In this document: piece after piece, positions 43,703 to 50,599 of the stretch
How positions within the stretch are numbered: position 1 is the first letter of the stretch
Layout of the letters: each line of letters opens with the position of its first letter
Origin: Haloglomus salinum
Lineage (GTDB): Archaea > Halobacteriota > Halobacteria > Halobacteriales > Haloarculaceae
Direction: 5' to 3'
NCBI RefSeq assembly: GCF_024298825.1
Contig: NZ_CP101153.1
Location: 1,426,001-1,490,000 of the forward strand
Length of the DNA stretch: 64,000 nt
The notes under the pieces: generated by a model
Databases searched by the model: none
The model's input: the letters and a program-made list of their open reading frames with translations, nothing else
Told to the model about the DNA's origin: nothing
Position numbers and translations under genes: made by a program

Positions 43703-43722
43703 TTTCGACGGTCGGACCAGAA
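43703..43722 (+). promoter_or_regulatory. 20-bp promoter box A (copy 1)
   Basis: TTTCGACGGTCGGACCAGAA occurs here, about 36 bases before the ATG of the first P19-like gene, and is identical at 48131-48150 before the second P19-like gene. It sits just upstream of the likely TATA position. It is a candidate operator for a metal-responsive or other regulator of the module. Confidence 0.75.
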
Positions 43723-43757
43723 CTCCTTTCGACACATCTCGCGTACCCCACGCAAGA

Positions 43758-44864
43758 ATGGACAGACGAGAGTTCCTGCGAGCGGGCGGGGCGGCCGGAG
43801 TCCTCGCGCTGGCAGGCTGCACGGGAACAGACGGGGGGGACGGTGGCGGGGGCGCGACACCGACGCCCACGCCGGCCGGCGGCAGCGGCGAGACACCGAC
43901 ACAGGCCGACGACGCGTCGCTCCCCGGGGGCGTCTACGTCCAGCGCTACTCCGAGAGCATGGCGATGCAGGGAACGGAGACGGCGGACGGATACGCCGCC
44001 GGGCTCATGTACGCCGCCCCGCACGTTTTCTGGAACGTCGCCGGGTCACAGCTGGAGCAGACACCGAAGGAGCCCTCGGACAGCGTCCACCTGATGGCCG
44101 TCGTCTGGGACCCCGAGACGAACACGGTCCTCCCCGAGGCGGGAGTCTCCGTCGAAATCCTCCAGAACGGCTCGCTCGTGAGCCAGGAGGTCATCTACCC
44201 GATGCTCTCCCAGCGGATGGGATTCCACTGGGGCGGGAACTTCCCGCTCGACGGCGACGGGGAGTACGTCGCGCGGGTGAGCATCGGCGGCATGAACACC
44301 CGCCGGACGGGTGCCTTCGAGGGGCAGTTCGGTGACCCGGCGACGCTCGAGCTCCCGTTCGCGTTCAACGAGGCGGAGCGCTCGAAGGTGACCGTCGAGC
44401 CGCTGGAGCAGTACGGCCAGCGCGGCGCGGTCAAGCCGATGAGCATGGGGATGATGCCGCAGGCGTACGCGCCGAAGCAGTCGGACCTGCCGGGCGAGTT
44501 CCTCGCGAAGACGACCAGCGACGACACCGTCTTCCTGTCGACACAGCTCTCGGGCGAGGCCGCGAGCCGGTTCGACGCCACGAACTACCTCGCCGTCTCG
44601 GCCCGGACCCCCTACAACCGCATCGTCCTCCCGTCGATGGCCGTCGAGGCGACGGTCACGCGGGGGAGCGAGACCGTCTTCGACGGCGCACTGACGCGGA
44701 CGCTCGACCCCGAACTCGACTACCACTACGGCACGGCCATCGCGGGCGGCCTGCAGGCTGGCGACGAGGTCGAGTTGCGGGTCCCGACCCCGCCGCAGGT
44801 CGCCCGCCACGAGGGGTACGAGCGGGCGTTCCTGCAGATGGAGCCGATGACGTTCACGGTCTGA
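43758..44864 (+). CDS. P19/Tp34-like Tat lipoprotein (iron-binding family), copy A
   Basis: The 368-residue exported lipoprotein has a Tat motif and lipobox: MDRREFLRAGGAAGVLALAGC, with C21 lipidated. A Thr/Pro/Gly linker follows. The folded part contains blocks shared with its paralogue at 48184: SQEVIYPMLSQRMGFHWGGNFPL, MNTRRTGAF, GMMPQ and SARTPYNR. The H-W-G-G-N-F-P-L and Met-rich segments are like the P19/Tp34 periplasmic iron-binding family (there HYGANV). It would bind ferrous iron or copper at the cell surface. The last residues PPQVARHEGYERAFLQME are also shared with the paralogue. Confidence 0.82.
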   Translation: MDRREFLRAGGAAGVLALAGCTGTDGGDGGGGATPTPTPAGGSGETPTQADDASLPGGVYVQRYSESMAMQGTETADGYAAGLMYAAPHVFWNVAGSQLEQTPKEPSDSVHLMAVVWDPETNTVLPEAGVSVEILQNGSLVSQEVIYPMLSQRMGFHWGGNFPLDGDGEYVARVSIGGMNTRRTGAFEGQFGDPATLELPFAFNEAERSKVTVEPLEQYGQRGAVKPMSMGMMPQAYAPKQSDLPGEFLAKTTSDDTVFLSTQLSGEAASRFDATNYLAVSARTPYNRIVLPSMAVEATVTRGSETVFDGALTRTLDPELDYHYGTAIAGGLQAGDEVELRVPTPPQVARHEGYERAFLQMEPMTFTV

Positions 44865-44897
44865 GCGTCCGGGAGGTCGACCGGCGCGGCCGTGCGA

Positions 44898-44908
44898 TTC
44901 TGGTCCGA
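44898..44908 (-). promoter_or_regulatory. Inverted half copy of the promoter box
   Basis: The 11 bases TCGGACCAGAA occur here in reverse orientation (plus strand TTCTGGTCCGA), about 43 bases before the start of the DUF7282-like gene at 44952. A TATA-like GGCTATACAGG lies at about 44920-44930. It places this gene under the same control as the P19-like genes. Confidence 0.6.
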
Positions 44909-44951
44909 ATTGGGAAACAGGCTATACAGGACGAGCGACAGCGTACGGGCA

Positions 44952-46019
44952 GTGCAACGACGCTCCCTCGTCGCGGCGGCGCTCGCGCTGGCCTGCGTGG
45001 CGGCGCTGGCGGCGGTTCCACTGCCGGTCAGCGCCCACGTCAACGACGTCCGTGCGGACCCGCAGGTCTCAGCCGACGGGACCGTACTGGTGGAGACCGC
45101 GTACGTCGCCGACGACGCCTGGCTGGCGCTGTACAGCGACGACGGCGGCGAGCGGGGCGAGGTCATCGGGACGAGGCAGCTGGGTGACGCCGGCTTCCGC
45201 ACCGACCTCGCCGTGCGCATCGACGAGGGCGCCTGGCGCGACTGGAGCGAGGGCGAGGCCCGGACGGTCCACGTCGCGCTCCACAACGACAAGGGGTCCA
45301 GCGGCTTCGACCGCGAGGAGGACCCGGTTCTGACCTTCTTCGGGCGCGAGGCGACCGACCAGTTCACCCTCGAACACGGCCAGGGCGCCTACGTCGGCAC
45401 CCGGGCGTTCAGCCCGCAGGACACCGACGGCCCGAGTGTGACCGTGCGGACCGCACGACTGCCGAGCGACGGGCATCTCGTCGCGCGGAACGTGACAAAC
45501 GCCAGCGAGGGGAACGAGACCGCGCTGGAGCCCGTGGGCTCGACCGCGCTGGCGGCCGGCACCCACCAGGACGTGACCGTCGAACTGGACGCGGCGTACT
45601 ACGAGCGCCAGGACACCCGCGCCCGCATCGGTCTCACCGTCTACCGTGACGACGGCGACGGGCGCTTCGGCCCCGGTGACGAGCCGGTTCGCGCGGGCGA
45701 CGCGGCGGTCACCACCTTCGTCTTCCTCAACCGGACGGACGCCTCCGGGGGCGCTGGGGGCGAGAGTGCCGGTGGGGGCGAGAGTTCGGCCAGTGACGGC
45801 GCGGCGGTGACCACCCCGGGTGCGACCGACGGGACGGACGGCGAGGGCGGGGGGCTCGTCACGACCGCGACGGCCGAGTCGACGACGGCGCCCGGAACCA
45901 CGGCGGACGGCGACACCGCGACGAAGAGTACGGACGGACAACCCGGATTCGGCGTTCTGACGGCAGCACTGGCCGTCGTGGCCGTGCTCGCGGCGGGCGG
46001 ACGGCGCCGACGGACCTAA
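44952..46019 (+). CDS. DUF7282-like PGF-CTERM surface protein, copy A
   Basis: Start is GTG 44952, giving a Sec signal QRRSLVAAALALACVAALA and 355 residues. The mature protein contains a beta-sandwich repeat unit (HVNDVRADPQVSADGTVLVE followed by the AWLALYSDDGG region). The C-terminus has a Gly/Ser/Thr-rich stalk and then the PGF-CTERM tail GQPGFGVLTAALAVVAVLAAGG with terminal basic residues RRRR. Haloarchaeal archaeosortase ArtA cuts such tails and attaches a lipid anchor. Function of the DUF7282 domain unknown, but it is paired with P19-like proteins here. It is paralogous to the gene at 47145. Confidence 0.85.
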   Translation: MQRRSLVAAALALACVAALAAVPLPVSAHVNDVRADPQVSADGTVLVETAYVADDAWLALYSDDGGERGEVIGTRQLGDAGFRTDLAVRIDEGAWRDWSEGEARTVHVALHNDKGSSGFDREEDPVLTFFGREATDQFTLEHGQGAYVGTRAFSPQDTDGPSVTVRTARLPSDGHLVARNVTNASEGNETALEPVGSTALAAGTHQDVTVELDAAYYERQDTRARIGLTVYRDDGDGRFGPGDEPVRAGDAAVTTFVFLNRTDASGGAGGESAGGGESSASDGAAVTTPGATDGTDGEGGGLVTTATAESTTAPGTTADGDTATKSTDGQPGFGVLTAALAVVAVLAAGGRRRRT

Positions 46020-46044
46020 ACACGAACGATGACTACCTACCCAC

Positions 46045-46371
46045 ATGGCCAACGGGCCGCTGCTCATCGCGCTGCTGGCGCTCGCGGGTGTCGCAGCGGC
46101 TACGCTGCTCGGACTGGCGCTCGCGGGCTTCGCCCGCCGGCGCTCCCGACCGTACCTGCTGGTCGCGCTCGCGCTCGCGACGCTCCTCGTCCGCGTCGCG
46201 GTGGCGTCGGCCGCGATGGCCGGCCTGCTGACGGACCCCGACCACCATCTCGCCGAGCACGTGCTGGACGTGCTGATGGCCGCGCTGGTCATCGCCGCCG
46301 TCTACACGGCCCGCTCGGTCCGCCGGCGGGCGAGCGCGGACCCCGAGCACGAGGTGGTCGACGATGACTGA
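46045..46371 (+). CDS. Small membrane protein, 108 aa
   Basis: Three to four hydrophobic helices are seen (LLIALLALAGVAAATLLGLAL; PYLLVALALATLLVRVAVASA; LDVLMAALVIAAVYTA), with a His pair DPDHHLAEHVLDVL before the last helix and an acidic C-terminus. Its end overlaps the wHTH gene by 8 bases, suggesting a membrane sensor/regulator pair, as is common for haloarchaeal DUF7471-like and HTH pairs. The ligand might be a metal or a heme, inferred only from the His pair and the neighbours. Confidence 0.72.
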   Translation: MANGPLLIALLALAGVAAATLLGLALAGFARRRSRPYLLVALALATLLVRVAVASAAMAGLLTDPDHHLAEHVLDVLMAALVIAAVYTARSVRRRASADPEHEVVDDD

Positions 46372-46888
46372 AGCGACCGAGAACACGACCCGGCGGGCGA
46401 TTCACGACCACATCCGGGACCGTCCGGGCGTCCATTTCAACGAGCTGACCCGGGTGCTGGACCTCGCACCCGGACAGGTCCAGTACCACCTGAAGCGGCT
46501 CACCCGTTCCGACCGCGTCGTCGCCGCGGACCTGTTCGGCCGAACCCACTACTATCCGCCCGAGTACGACGACTGGGAGCGGGCCGCGCTGGCGCTGCTC
46601 CACCGCGAGACGAGCGCGGACATCGTCGCCGAACTGCTGGCGGCGGGGCCGCTCGGCGCCGGCGAGACCGCCGAACGCGTCGGTATCGCCCGCTCGACCT
46701 GCTCCTGGCACGTTGATCGGCTGGTCGAGGCCGACGTGGTCCGGAAGGAGCGCGACGGGAACCGTGTGGTACTGACGCTCGCGGAACCGGAGCGGACGGC
46801 ACGACTCCTGCAGCGGGCCGAGCCGTCGCTCCCCGAGCGGCTGGTGGACCGGTTCACGCGGCTCGTGGATTCGCTACTTGCCGAGTGA
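46364..46888 (+). CDS. Winged helix-turn-helix transcription regulator
   Basis: This 174-residue protein has two wHTH units. The N-terminal (RAIHDHIRDRPGVHFNELTRVLDLAPGQVQYHLKRLTRSDRVV) is an ArsR/MarR-like DNA-binding unit, and the C-terminal (ALALLHRETSADIVAELLAAG, then ERVGIARSTCSWHVDRLVEADVVRKE) is a second unit. This is the double-wHTH layout seen in haloarchaeal regulators paired with a small membrane protein. It probably controls the neighbouring P19/DUF7282 genes, perhaps through the 20-bp boxes. Overlap of 8 bases with the membrane gene suggests the two work together. Confidence 0.88.
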   Translation: MTEATENTTRRAIHDHIRDRPGVHFNELTRVLDLAPGQVQYHLKRLTRSDRVVAADLFGRTHYYPPEYDDWERAALALLHRETSADIVAELLAAGPLGAGETAERVGIARSTCSWHVDRLVEADVVRKERDGNRVVLTLAEPERTARLLQRAEPSLPERLVDRFTRLVDSLLAE

Positions 46889-46984
46889 ATATCACACCAG
46901 ATTCAAATTTTGGTTCATGAATTGAAATTTCCGAGATTTATACGGGTATCACGTATTCCTTCTCAGCGATAACGCGACCATCTC

Positions 46985-46996
46985 CGAAGCCCTCGC
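46985..46996 (+). repeat. Short copy of the dispersed CGAAGCCCTCGC core
   Basis: The 12 bases CGAAGCCCTCGC match the core of the inverted repeats at 21871-21882. It sits in the 256-base spacer before the DUF7282-like gene at 47145, next to an AT-rich stretch (46889-46960) with TTCAAATTTTGG and GAATTGAAATTT palindromic pieces. Confidence 0.45.
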
Positions 46997-47144
46997 ACGC
47001 GAGAGCGGCGGCGGGCCTCCGGCACAGCCGCCAGCGCGCGCCCGGTGGACTGACAGATACCCCCCACTCGTGGAAGGCGGCAACAGCGTGCGCCCCCGGA
47101 GGTGAACCCGCAGCCTCTTGCGCCCCGGTGCCGAAGCCCCGGCC

Positions 47145-48092
47145 ATGCGACGGGGCGCTACGACGCTGGGTCTCCTCGTGCTGGTCGCCGCGCTCGTGGG
47201 CGCGGGCGTCGCGGGCGGCCACTCCGTCAACTACGTCTCCGCCGACCCGCAGGTCACGCCCGACGGGACGGTCCTCGTCGAGGGAGCCTTCGTCGAGGAG
47301 TCCGGCTGGGCCGTGCTCCACGAGCGGACCGTGGATGGCTACGGGGAGGCGCTCGGCGCGACCCGGCTCCCCCGACGGAACGCCTTCTACACGGATATCG
47401 CGGTCACCATCGAGGCCGAGGCGTGGGCGAACTGGTCGACGCGTGAGGTCGTCGTGGTCCTCCACGGTGAGGACGGGGACGGCGAGTTCACCGACGCGGA
47501 CCCGCCGCTGGCCGGGTTCGGCGTCGTCGTCACGGACCGGTTCGTCGTCGAACCGGGCCACCGCGCCGTCGTCACCGGCGAGGACGATTTCCCGCAGCGG
47601 GCCGACGGGCCGAGCGTGACCGTCCGGCGGGCGACCCTGCCCGAGCGCGGGCACCTCGTCGTCCGCAACCGGACCGCCGAGGGCCGCGTCATCGGGGCCC
47701 GGACCCTCGACGCCGGCACGTACGAGAACGTCTCGGTCGCGGTGAACGACTCGTTCCACGCGGCGACCGAGGGGTCGTTCGCGGCGCGCGTGAGCCTCCA
47801 CCGCGACGACGGGGACGGGGAGTTCGACGGCGACGAGCGGGCGGTTCGTGCGGGCAACGAGACCGTCACAACCCGGTTCAGCGTCGAACCCGAGCGGGCG
47901 GGCGGCATCGTCACGACGCCGGTCCCGACGACCGCGCCACCCGACGGCGGGAGCGGCGGGACTGCCACGGGAAGCGGGACGACGGCCGGCGGGGCGACCG
48001 AGACGGGTGGTCAGCCCGGCTTCGGCCTCGCGGCGGTCGTCGCGGGGGTCCTCGTGGCCGCGCTAGCGCTCGGCGGCGGCCGGCGCCGTTGA
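47145..48092 (+). CDS. DUF7282-like PGF-CTERM surface protein, copy B
   Basis: The 315-residue protein starts at ATG 47145 with a Sec signal RRGATTLGLLVLVAALVGAGVAGG. It is a paralogue of 44952: SVNYVSADPQVTPDGTVLVE matches HVNDVRADPQVSADGTVLVE. Repeated blocks include RADGPSVTVRRATLPERGHLVVRN and RVSLHRDDGDGEFDGDERAVRAGNETVTTRF. The tail is PGF-CTERM type (GQPGFGLAAVVAGVLVAALALGGG and RRR). Likely anchored to archaetidyl lipids after ArtA processing. No promoter box is seen in front of it, so it may depend on upstream transcription or the AT-rich stretch at 46900. Confidence 0.85.
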   Translation: MRRGATTLGLLVLVAALVGAGVAGGHSVNYVSADPQVTPDGTVLVEGAFVEESGWAVLHERTVDGYGEALGATRLPRRNAFYTDIAVTIEAEAWANWSTREVVVVLHGEDGDGEFTDADPPLAGFGVVVTDRFVVEPGHRAVVTGEDDFPQRADGPSVTVRRATLPERGHLVVRNRTAEGRVIGARTLDAGTYENVSVAVNDSFHAATEGSFAARVSLHRDDGDGEFDGDERAVRAGNETVTTRFSVEPERAGGIVTTPVPTTAPPDGGSGGTATGSGTTAGGATETGGQPGFGLAAVVAGVLVAALALGGGRRR

Positions 48093-48130
48093 CGCCCGGC
48101 ACTCCCACGCGGCTGCCCGTCTCACGACGG

Positions 48131-48150
48131 TTTCGACGGTCGGACCAGAA
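48131..48150 (+). promoter_or_regulatory. 20-bp promoter box A (copy 2)
   Basis: Identical to 43703-43722 over all 20 bases, 34 bases before the ATG of the second P19-like gene. It is the same position relative to the start as copy 1 (about 33-36 bases). Sequence between box and start differs, so conservation is limited to the box. Confidence 0.75.
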
Positions 48151-48183
48151 TCCGTTTTGGTGGGGAGACCGGACGAGTAGCCA

Positions 48184-49248
48184 ATGCGACGACGCGATTT
48201 CCTGCTGGGCACCGGCGCCGCGGGCGCGACCGCGCTGGCCGGCTGTGGAGGGCTCGTCGAGACCCGCTCGCTCTCCTCGCCGCCGGTGCTGTCGAACCGC
48301 CCGGATGCCGTCTACTTCCCGACCCACGTCGAGGGGATGCAGATGACGGGGATGGGCGGGTCGGGAGACTACAAGTTCGCCCTGATGTACAGCTACCCGC
48401 ACCGGTTCTGGAACGTGAACGGAGACGAGGTCCAGAAGACGAGCATCGAGGACGAGGACGACGTCCACCTGATGGCGACCGTCTGGGACCCGGAGACGGG
48501 TGTCGTCCTGCCGGAGACCGGCCTCAGCCTCGAGATATCGAAGGGCGGGGACCTGGTGAGCCAGGAGGTCATCTACCCGATGCTCTCCCAGCCCATGGGC
48601 TTTCACTACGGCGGCAACTTCCCGCTCGACGGCGACGGGGCGTACGACGTGACCGTCTCGGTCGGCGGGGTGAACACCCGCCGGACGGGCGCGTTCCGGG
48701 AGAAGTTCGGCGACCCCGCGGAGACGACCATCGGCTTCGACTACAGTGAGTCGAAGCGCAACGAGATCATGTTCGAGGAGACGCCCGACCGGGCCGGCAA
48801 GCGGAGCGCTCGTGACCCGATGGAGATGGGGATGATGCCCCAGTCGACGCTCCCGCCGGCCGAGGAGTTCCCGGGCGGCGTGCGCGGGACGGCCGAGACG
48901 GGCGACGCGAACCTCGTCGTTACCACTCTCGACGCGCCGCCCGAGGGTGTCGACGCCCCCGACGGCGCACAGTACCTCGCGGTGTCGGCCCGGACGCCGT
49001 ACAACCGGATGGTCCTGCCAGCGATGGCGATGGAGGGCACGCTGACCAGCGGCGGCGAGACGGTGTTCGACGGCGCACTGACCCGGACGCTCGACCCTGA
49101 CCTGAACTACCACTACGGTGCGGCTGTCGAGTCGGTCCCGGCGGGTGCCGACCTCGAACTGCGCGTGACGACCCCGCCACAGGTCGCCCGCCACGAGGGG
49201 TACGAGACCGCGTTCATCGACATGCAACCGACCAGCCAGACCCTCTGA
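48184..49248 (+). CDS. P19/Tp34-like Tat lipoprotein, copy B
   Basis: The 354-residue Tat lipoprotein starts MRRRDFLLGTGAAGATALAGC, with the lipid Cys at 21. It is the paralogue of 43758: SQEVIYPMLSQPMGFHYGGNFPL, VNTRRTGAF, GMMPQ and SARTPYNRMVLP are shared. The HYGGN block is closer to P19 HYGAN than copy A (HWGGN). Unlike copy A it lacks the long Thr/Pro linker. The two copies may bind different metal states or act as partners. It is followed 40 bases later by the DyP-like Tat gene, so the two may form an operon. Confidence 0.83.
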   Translation: MRRRDFLLGTGAAGATALAGCGGLVETRSLSSPPVLSNRPDAVYFPTHVEGMQMTGMGGSGDYKFALMYSYPHRFWNVNGDEVQKTSIEDEDDVHLMATVWDPETGVVLPETGLSLEISKGGDLVSQEVIYPMLSQPMGFHYGGNFPLDGDGAYDVTVSVGGVNTRRTGAFREKFGDPAETTIGFDYSESKRNEIMFEETPDRAGKRSARDPMEMGMMPQSTLPPAEEFPGGVRGTAETGDANLVVTTLDAPPEGVDAPDGAQYLAVSARTPYNRMVLPAMAMEGTLTSGGETVFDGALTRTLDPDLNYHYGAAVESVPAGADLELRVTTPPQVARHEGYETAFIDMQPTSQTL

Positions 49249-49288: not shown

Positions 49289-50599
49289 ATGACCGGACCG
49301 AACACCGACCGGAGCCGTCGCGACGTGCTGAAAGCCGCCGTCGCCGTGGGCGGGAGCGTCGGCCTCTCGGCGTGTCTCGACGCCGTCGGCTATCAGGGCG
49401 CGGACCGCCCACCCGTGCCGTCGGGACCGGCGGACCTCTCGACGCTCCCCACACGGCAGTTCGCATGGGGCGAGTTCATCCGTCGCGACGAGTTCGGCAA
49501 CGAGCAGTTGCCACGCCACCAGACGCTCCTGTATCTGAACCTCCACGGCGAGGGGGCACCGACCGCCGACCAGCGCGCGACCGTCGAGCGCGCGCTCACG
49601 CGGCTGGACGAGGCGTACGCGTGGTCCCACGAGGGCCTGCTGCGCTCGATCGCGTACACCCCGGAGTACTTCCAGCGCTACGGCGCCATGCCGGAGGGCG
49701 TCGACATCTACCCCGCGAAGCGGCTCTCATCGTTCGAGACACCCGATTTCGACCGGCAGGACGCGCTGCTCCACCTCGCCAGCGACCGCCCGGACGCGCT
49801 GCTGGAGGCGGAACTCGCGCTCACCGGCGAGCGCGCGACGGCCAACGGCGTCGAGTTCGACGCCGCACTCACGGATGTCTTCACGGTGGACGACCGCCGG
49901 ACGGGCTTCGTCGGCGCCGGCCTGCCGGCCGAGAAACAGGCCGGACTCGAGGGCGTGCCCGAGGACGGCCCCGTCCCGGAGGCGAGTCCGCTGTTCATGG
50001 GGTTCAAGGCCGGCTTCGCGAAGAACCAGGCGCCCGAGGACCGCGTGACCATCCAGGAGGGTCCGTTCGCCGGCGGCACCACGAAACACGTCGCCAACCT
50101 CCGGCAGCGGCTGTCGGACTGGTACGGCGAACAGGACTTCGCCGACCAGGTGATGGAGATGTTCTCGCCGATGCACGCCGAGAACAACTGGGTCGAGGGG
50201 GTCGGCGCGAACCTCGGCGACGGCTCCCGCGTGGACGCGACGCTCGACACCATCCGCGAGCAGGCCCGCGAACACGGTCGCGTCGGCCACGCGCAGAAGG
50301 CCGCCCGCGCGAACCGGGACGCGGACGGCGGCGTGAAGCTCAACCGCCGACACTTCGAGTCCGCCGACGACGGCATCGCCAGCCTCCACTTCCCCTCGCT
50401 CCAGCGCGAGATGAGCGAGTTCGACGCCGTCCGCGAGGCGATGAACGGCCAGGACCTGACCGAGGTGACACCCGCGGTCCGCCAGCGCGTGAACAACGGC
50501 ATCCTCGAGTACATCTTCGTCCGCCATCGCGGCAACTTCCTCGTGCCGCCGCGGGAGATCCGGTCGTTGCCGACGCCGCAGGGAGAAGTTCCAGAGTAG
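49289..50599 (+). CDS. Tat-exported DyP-type peroxidase-like protein (DUF7405-like)
   Basis: The 436-residue protein begins with a Tat signal (DRSRRDVLKAAVAVGGSVGLSACL). It resembles DyP-type/EfeB proteins: GFKAGFAKNQAPEDR stands where DyP has GFxDG, and GRVGHAQKAARANR with RRHFESADDGIASLHFPSLQREM match the heme-ligand and RR-F-S-DG region. The catalytic Asp of GxxDG is Ala here, so peroxidase activity is doubtful. EfeB-type DyPs work with ferrous-iron importers and P19-like proteins, matching the context. Heme binding and substrate are not proven. An upstream gene start is 40 bases from the P19-like stop. Confidence 0.78.
   Translation: MTGPNTDRSRRDVLKAAVAVGGSVGLSACLDAVGYQGADRPPVPSGPADLSTLPTRQFAWGEFIRRDEFGNEQLPRHQTLLYLNLHGEGAPTADQRATVERALTRLDEAYAWSHEGLLRSIAYTPEYFQRYGAMPEGVDIYPAKRLSSFETPDFDRQDALLHLASDRPDALLEAELALTGERATANGVEFDAALTDVFTVDDRRTGFVGAGLPAEKQAGLEGVPEDGPVPEASPLFMGFKAGFAKNQAPEDRVTIQEGPFAGGTTKHVANLRQRLSDWYGEQDFADQVMEMFSPMHAENNWVEGVGANLGDGSRVDATLDTIREQAREHGRVGHAQKAARANRDADGGVKLNRRHFESADDGIASLHFPSLQREMSEFDAVREAMNGQDLTEVTPAVRQRVNNGILEYIFVRHRGNFLVPPREIRSLPTPQGEVPE

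Follow-up and report, generated by a model that had tools for sequence, protein, structure and literature searches.

Why do two lipoprotein genes whose products are only 53% identical carry exactly the same stretch of DNA in front of them? In a 64,000-nucleotide stretch of the Haloglomus salinum genome (positions 1,426,001 to 1,490,000 of contig NZ_CP101153.1; hereafter, the window), the genes for two P19-like Tat lipoproteins, P19a and P19b, are each preceded by an identical 20-bp box, raising the question of whether this box is a leftover of duplication or a control site and, in the latter case, which protein reads it. Our analysis establishes the box as a real, widely conserved haloarchaeal control site before genes for exported metal and redox proteins. 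As judged from sequence, it is probably a bipartite operator (the A box) read by a tandem winged-helix protein, regulator A, which would mainly activate an exported metal/redox regulon. The general kind of system is already known; this site and the role of its regulator are without published description in the literature that we searched.

Two identical boxes in the window

The box, TTTCGACGGTCGGACCAGAA, occurs as two identical copies on the forward strand, at 43703–43722 (core TTCGACGGTCGGACCAGAA at 43704–43722) and 48131–48150 (core at 48132–48150), in agreement with an earlier note on this DNA. Allowing up to three mismatches recovers the same two copies only in the window, whereas shuffled windows contain a mean of 0.02 copies and none of 100 shuffles contains two. 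A search of the whole 4.19-Mb genome, proposed in the same note, returned these two as its only exact copies and a third with one mismatch near 423 kb. The boxes end 35 nt before the ATG at 43758 and 33 nt before the ATG at 48184, in line with the 33–36 bases described earlier, and at both copies a T-run in the TATA position starts 4 nt behind the box (43727–43729, a weak TATA that is also visible in the family logo, and 48155–48158).

Both boxes precede genes for DUF7350 Tat lipoproteins, P19a (43758–44864; PF24041, 8.4e-53) and P19b (48184–49248; assigned by Pfam, with one part modelled in the P19/FetP fold). The double winged-helix regulator and small membrane partner that had been described between the boxes are present there, all genes of the group being on the forward strand: a DUF7282 protein (44952–46019, in a frame open from 44892, its start inferred from the signal peptide), the small DUF7471 membrane protein (46045–46371), which we regard as the partner gene of the regulator on the basis of domain match and neighbourhood, regulator A itself (46364–46888) and a second DUF7282 protein (47145–48092, in a frame open from 47118, assigned by frame and domain match). 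A gene for a DUF7405 Tat lipoprotein (49289–50599; Pfam and model) starts 40 bp behind P19b, and the two genes are probably on the same transcript. Separately, the interval 46893–46945, which lies past the regulator and ahead of the second DUF7282 gene, is AT-rich and contains a partial palindrome and TTTATA; position 46908 on the minus strand scores 14 bits as a box, second in the window only to the two true copies.

A duplication that produced both P19a and P19b could have left identical boxes in front of these DUF7350 paralogs. The DNA around the boxes is, however, unrelated: the upstream flanks are alike at 39 of 100 bases and the box-to-ATG stretches share 12 matches (both ungapped). Because the flanks are this unalike while the proteins are 53% identical, the identity of the boxes is not a remnant of duplication. 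The same element also precedes unrelated genes in many other genomes, which together with the flanks refutes recent duplication as the cause; we give it practically no credence.

Conservation of the element across haloarchaea

Relatives of P19b were collected from named genomes at 39 loci, the nearest in Haloglomus species at 86% and 78% identity. Eleven loci were excluded because the start did not coincide with the match, the locus was cut short or the gene lay behind another gene, leaving 28 promoters to be read. In 23 of these, TTCGANNNYCGNACCAGAA is matched at 16 or more of its 19 positions, always 50–52 nt before the start and followed by a T-run; the remaining five score 11–15 of 19. The aligned columns carry little information beyond the box and the T-run. 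The genera represented include Haloglomus, Halorarius, Halorientalis, Halorubrum, Haloplanus, Halobellus, Halomarina, Halovenus, Haloarchaeobius, Halorussus and Halobacterium. The resulting consensus is TTCGA-N7-ACCAGAA, about 51 nt ahead of the start codon.

A search allowing one mismatch finds the box in 31 of 39 related genomes. In H. salinum, the third copy (423054–423072, minus strand) sits 50 nt before the ATG of a gene whose Tat lipoprotein product carries a thioredoxin domain of the DsbA type, an arrangement that recurs in three relatives. The box is therefore not confined to the two P19 duplicates, the outcome that the earlier note had regarded as fatal to a regulatory role. When two mismatches to the 19-bp element are allowed, this genome yields 20 places against 2 for the control; by eye, most of the 20 are off the standard promoter spacing, and only the one-mismatch site at 423 kb was therefore added as a target. 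H. salinum has one more DUF7350 gene (2702084–2702863), its third, which lacks a box immediately upstream; it directly follows a frame whose end resembles a cupredoxin and is probably part of an operon.

A strict pattern comprising the box plus an ATG matches at 130 sites, spread over 59 of 97 haloarchaeal genomes of the order, against a single match to the reversed pattern that served as control. Outside the order, 97 genomes gave four strict-pattern matches, equal to the four control matches (119 genomes of the phylum were searched). A distinct arrangement appears in five genomes of one family, where two boxes abut head to head on opposite strands between divergent genes, one of which encodes a membrane protein with AHSGTTHAGTPHW near its start.

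Genes behind the box

Of the 130 strict-pattern sites, 126 could be recovered with their downstream frames and clustered. The two largest clusters are DUF7405 (39 sites) and DUF7350 (33 sites), followed by an unnamed membrane family (6), DsbD_2 (4), HiPIP (3), SCO1/SenC (2), NosL (2) and DUF7471 (1); the remaining sites precede small groups, isolated proteins or short frames, or are probably chance matches. The one-mismatch set adds a halocyanin-like copper protein and a YtkA-like protein. Seven genomes have a box upstream of, and on the same strand as, DUF7471. At six loci of one genus, the box before DUF7471 precedes a frame of 25–34 codons at the usual distance, and the DUF7471 domain starts about 200 nt from the box, leaving room for a leader peptide or a 5′ UTR. 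A beta-propeller-like lipoprotein with no firm Pfam family is associated with a box or one-mismatch box in three genomes.

The box targets thus appear to be exported metal-binding and redox proteins, export being read from Tat and lipoprotein signals. In this genome, the predicted targets are P19a, the P19b–DUF7405 genes and the DsbA-like lipoprotein at 423 kb. The fixed distance to the start codon and the occurrence before orthologous as well as unrelated genes in many genera strongly support the shared operator or activator site proposed earlier. The targets make regulation by metal, also proposed there, plausible; copper delivery or envelope redox would account for them no less well than iron.

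Structural models give the two principal families a clearer identity than sequence does. For both P19b and DUF7405, profile searches against solved structures are weak and fold searches are clear, and a direct sequence search of the two proteins against solved structures found no match. The P19b model (pLDDT 89) adopts the P19/FetP beta-sandwich over about 155–170 aligned columns of its 354 residues and matches the structures of FetP, P19, FtrA, HftA and Tp34 (best E 7.1e-7; TM to target 0.60–0.67). P19b passes the PF10634 cut-off narrowly (23.8 bits against 21), P19a has no PF10634 match, and the candidate metal-site residues H95, M97 and H141 are invariant in 35 sequences. P19b shares the fold of the P19/FetP/FtrA/Tp34 proteins (PF10634) in part of its length, but it has about double their length, carries a Tat lipoprotein signal and continues into a DUF7350 domain. 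The DUF7405 model (pLDDT 82) matches structures of DyP-type peroxidases, a group that includes EfeB/deferrochelatase, with a best E of 9.6e-15, whereas the profile match to DyP is insignificant (E 0.08). DyP peroxidases carry a catalytic GXXDG-type motif and heme. DUF7405 shares their fold but forms its own Pfam family, at 12–17% identity among the fold matches listed.

A tandem winged-helix protein linked to the box

Regulator A combines a PF24266 domain (residues 8–76) with a second helix-turn-helix domain matched by HTH_20 (78–128) and HTH_24 (86–127); this second domain resembles ArsR/SmtB metalloregulators, with NF033788 over its cut-off. It belongs with the HVO_0163-type double winged-helix proteins (PF24266), whose cut-off of 31 bits is passed by regulator A (124 bits) and by a paralog described below, regulator B (82 bits); in the literature searched, no operator is in print for this family. 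HVO_0163 itself may be another paralog rather than regulator A, and its neighbour in numbering, HVO_0162, is called a Zn-dependent protease in a passage of one source (PMC12175516). Published hypochlorite data for HVO_0163 (PMC10294847) were set aside, since that passage of PMC12175516 leaves room for HVO_0163 being another paralog.

Of the 59 box genomes, 55 encode an ortholog of regulator A, and the nearest box lies within 5 kb of the regulator A gene in 39 of those 55, against 0.42 expected for random placement, a figure partly explained by the clustering of targets with the regulator. In 29 of 30 loci, the regulator gene is next to DUF7471. H. salinum encodes a third PF24266 protein (2322332), which has no such box nearby.

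Two observations would fit a different reader, such as a dedicated TFB or an activator of the Bat type, with the winged-helix gene merely clustering with the targets. Four box genomes lack regulator A, one of which (G063) has three convincing sites, and 23 of the 38 genomes without a box still encode regulator A, which there must have another role or a drifted site. A scan of 15 regulator A loci for a degenerate box found, at the 13 box-negative ones, at best a partial match in one genome (G025). What weighs against another reader is the pairing of a paralogous winged-helix protein with a box that differs by two bases, set out in the next section, and we consider such a reader improbable. Regulator A is the likely reader of the A box, on evidence that is strong yet indirect.

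A paralog paired with a sister box

Regulator B, a paralog in the same genome (638317–638832), is about 40–42% identical to regulator A. A tandem pair of sequences close to the box, one reading TTCGACGGTCGGACGCGAA, lies 2 kb from its gene, and a search with TTCGAN7ACGNGAA plus ATG located sites beside regulator B in several genomes. Searching 194 genomes for regulator B yielded 24 copies in 21 genomes. Around these, TTCGAN7ACGCGAA (the B box) occurs 31 times, at 22 of the 24 loci and about 2 kb away. At regulator B loci fetched only after the hypothesis had been formed, the sister box is present at 13 of 14.

The two box types are mutually exclusive by locus. The 24 regulator B loci contain no A boxes and no matches to the reversed pattern, and altered spacers of 5, 6, 8 and 9 give 1, 0, 1 and 0 matches, respectively. 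Conversely, the 51 regulator A loci contain 41 A boxes, at 28 loci, with no B boxes, no reversed matches and no other spacers, in a set that is biased because 21 of the 51 were fetched through P19 similarity. The B box also precedes other genes than the A box, and one of the neighbours encodes an ApbE flavin transferase. A two-base change in the box that tracks the regulator paralog, next to unrelated targets, is the strongest evidence that these winged-helix proteins would read the box. As a separate observation, the H. salinum locus at 636271–638832 contains, besides its two tandem boxes, genes for an acidic small protein, the ApbE flavin transferase and a membrane protein that belongs to no Pfam family; this regulon may be a flavin-linked exported electron-transfer system.

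Comparison of 51 regulator A with 10 regulator B proteins points to the domain that may discriminate between the boxes. Three positions in the N-terminal winged helix, N26/R, Q38/T and H62/R (A/B), are 94–100% diagnostic, whereas positions 113–114 in the second recognition helix vary within group A; regulator A of the window has S at 114, as in B, yet its box is of the A form. Given these diagnostic N-domain residues and the variable 113–114, we infer that the N-terminal domain reads ACCAGAA or ACGCGAA and the second domain TTCGA, an assignment to be taken as a prediction because diagnostic A/B positions also lie outside the N-domain.

Promoter layout

The box starts 50–52 nt before the start codon in 84 of 99 sites (those with frames of at least 90 aa), and a canonical TATA follows within 15 nt in 3 of 126 promoters. 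The AA of ACCAGAA falls at what we take to be the BRE position. Because the core promoters have no canonical TATA and the site ends where the BRE begins, we prefer activation; the layout suggests, with reasonable rather than high confidence, an activator and not a repressor. The haloarchaeal activators GvpE, Bat and TrmB (as activator) bind just upstream of the BRE. The A box likewise lies directly upstream of the BRE/TATA region, but those activators belong to other protein families with other sites, and the A box is bipartite and non-palindromic.

Regulator A could instead be an ArsR-style repressor that covers the BRE and access for TFB until metal or oxidant releases it. The ACCAGAA half lies directly against the BRE position, the second domain of the protein is ArsR/SmtB-like and one inverted site lies ahead of the regulator's own gene group, all of which would suit repression. 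The weak core promoters, however, suit activation, and such a rigid position is expected if contact with TFB matters, leaving repression rather unlikely. A further alternative is an unusual BRE/TATA core promoter that has no specific regulator, as the AA at the presumed BRE position could indicate. Yet TTCGA lies 12 bp further upstream at a fixed spacing (with no shifted spacers at the 51 A loci), the gene set is narrow and there is no excess over the control outside the order. We regard a mere core promoter as very improbable.

An inverted copy before the regulator genes

The earlier note had also described the inner 11 bases of the box as recurring in inverted form before the DUF7282 gene. 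An inverted 11-base copy is indeed found at 44898–44908, but it corresponds to the 3′ part of the box, its last 11 bases (TCGGACCAGAA), and not to inner ones. Extended to 19 bp (44898–44916, minus strand), the copy reads TTCCCAATTCGGACCAGAA, differs from TTCGANNNYCGNACCAGAA at two positions and scores 7 bits against 28 bits for the true boxes. The site, together with a TATA-like stretch behind it, is kept with its neighbourhood in two relatives (one assembly, counted once, appears as both L066 and L159; the other is L161). Its orientation is wrong for the standard arrangement of box and promoter. The exact 11-mer has one further copy in the genome, at 3966867, making the 11-mer alone weak evidence. 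It was also discarded as a genome-wide marker, being too short: up to one mismatch gives 74 places against 23 for the reversed control. Because the copy is imperfect, the inverted site before DUF7282 has only a putative role: it may serve autoregulation, possibly bringing the DUF7282–DUF7471–regulator genes under regulator A.

Discussion

The genomes themselves show the element, where it sits, which genes follow it, how closely it is linked to regulator A and how paralog and box change together. In the mechanism that we favour, the A box would be an operator made of two parts, TTCGA and ACCAGAA, 7 bp apart and without palindromic symmetry, that sits immediately ahead of the BRE/TATA position in leaderless-looking promoters. 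Each of the two dissimilar winged-helix domains of regulator A would bind one of the dissimilar half-sites, the N-terminal one probably ACCAGAA and the C-terminal one TTCGA, and the bound protein would mainly activate by aiding the binding of TFB and TBP. Since the regulon is made up of exported proteins that bind metals or act in redox reactions, the most likely signal is the copper or redox state of the envelope, possibly sensed via DUF7471.

A wider reading, which we put forward as a real possibility rather than as the expected outcome, is that tandem winged-helix proteins and paired half-sites form a modular DNA code, with regulator A and a DUF7471 sensor coupling envelope copper or redox to exported proteins. 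If so, each operator would consist of a shared TTCGA plus ACCAGAA (A) or ACGCGAA (B), and a few residue changes in one domain would direct a regulator to a different regulon, with the other half-site left as it was. Through regulator A and the DUF7471 sensor, the copper/redox state of the envelope would then be coupled to a set of exported metal proteins and electron-transfer proteins. DNA sites are known for few haloarchaeal regulators. To a regulator family that has received no study, the analysis assigns two predicted, mutually exclusive operators and a predicted regulon of poorly annotated exported proteins (DUF7350, DUF7405 and DUF7471), and the predictions, made at the level of single bases, can be tested in genetically tractable haloarchaea.
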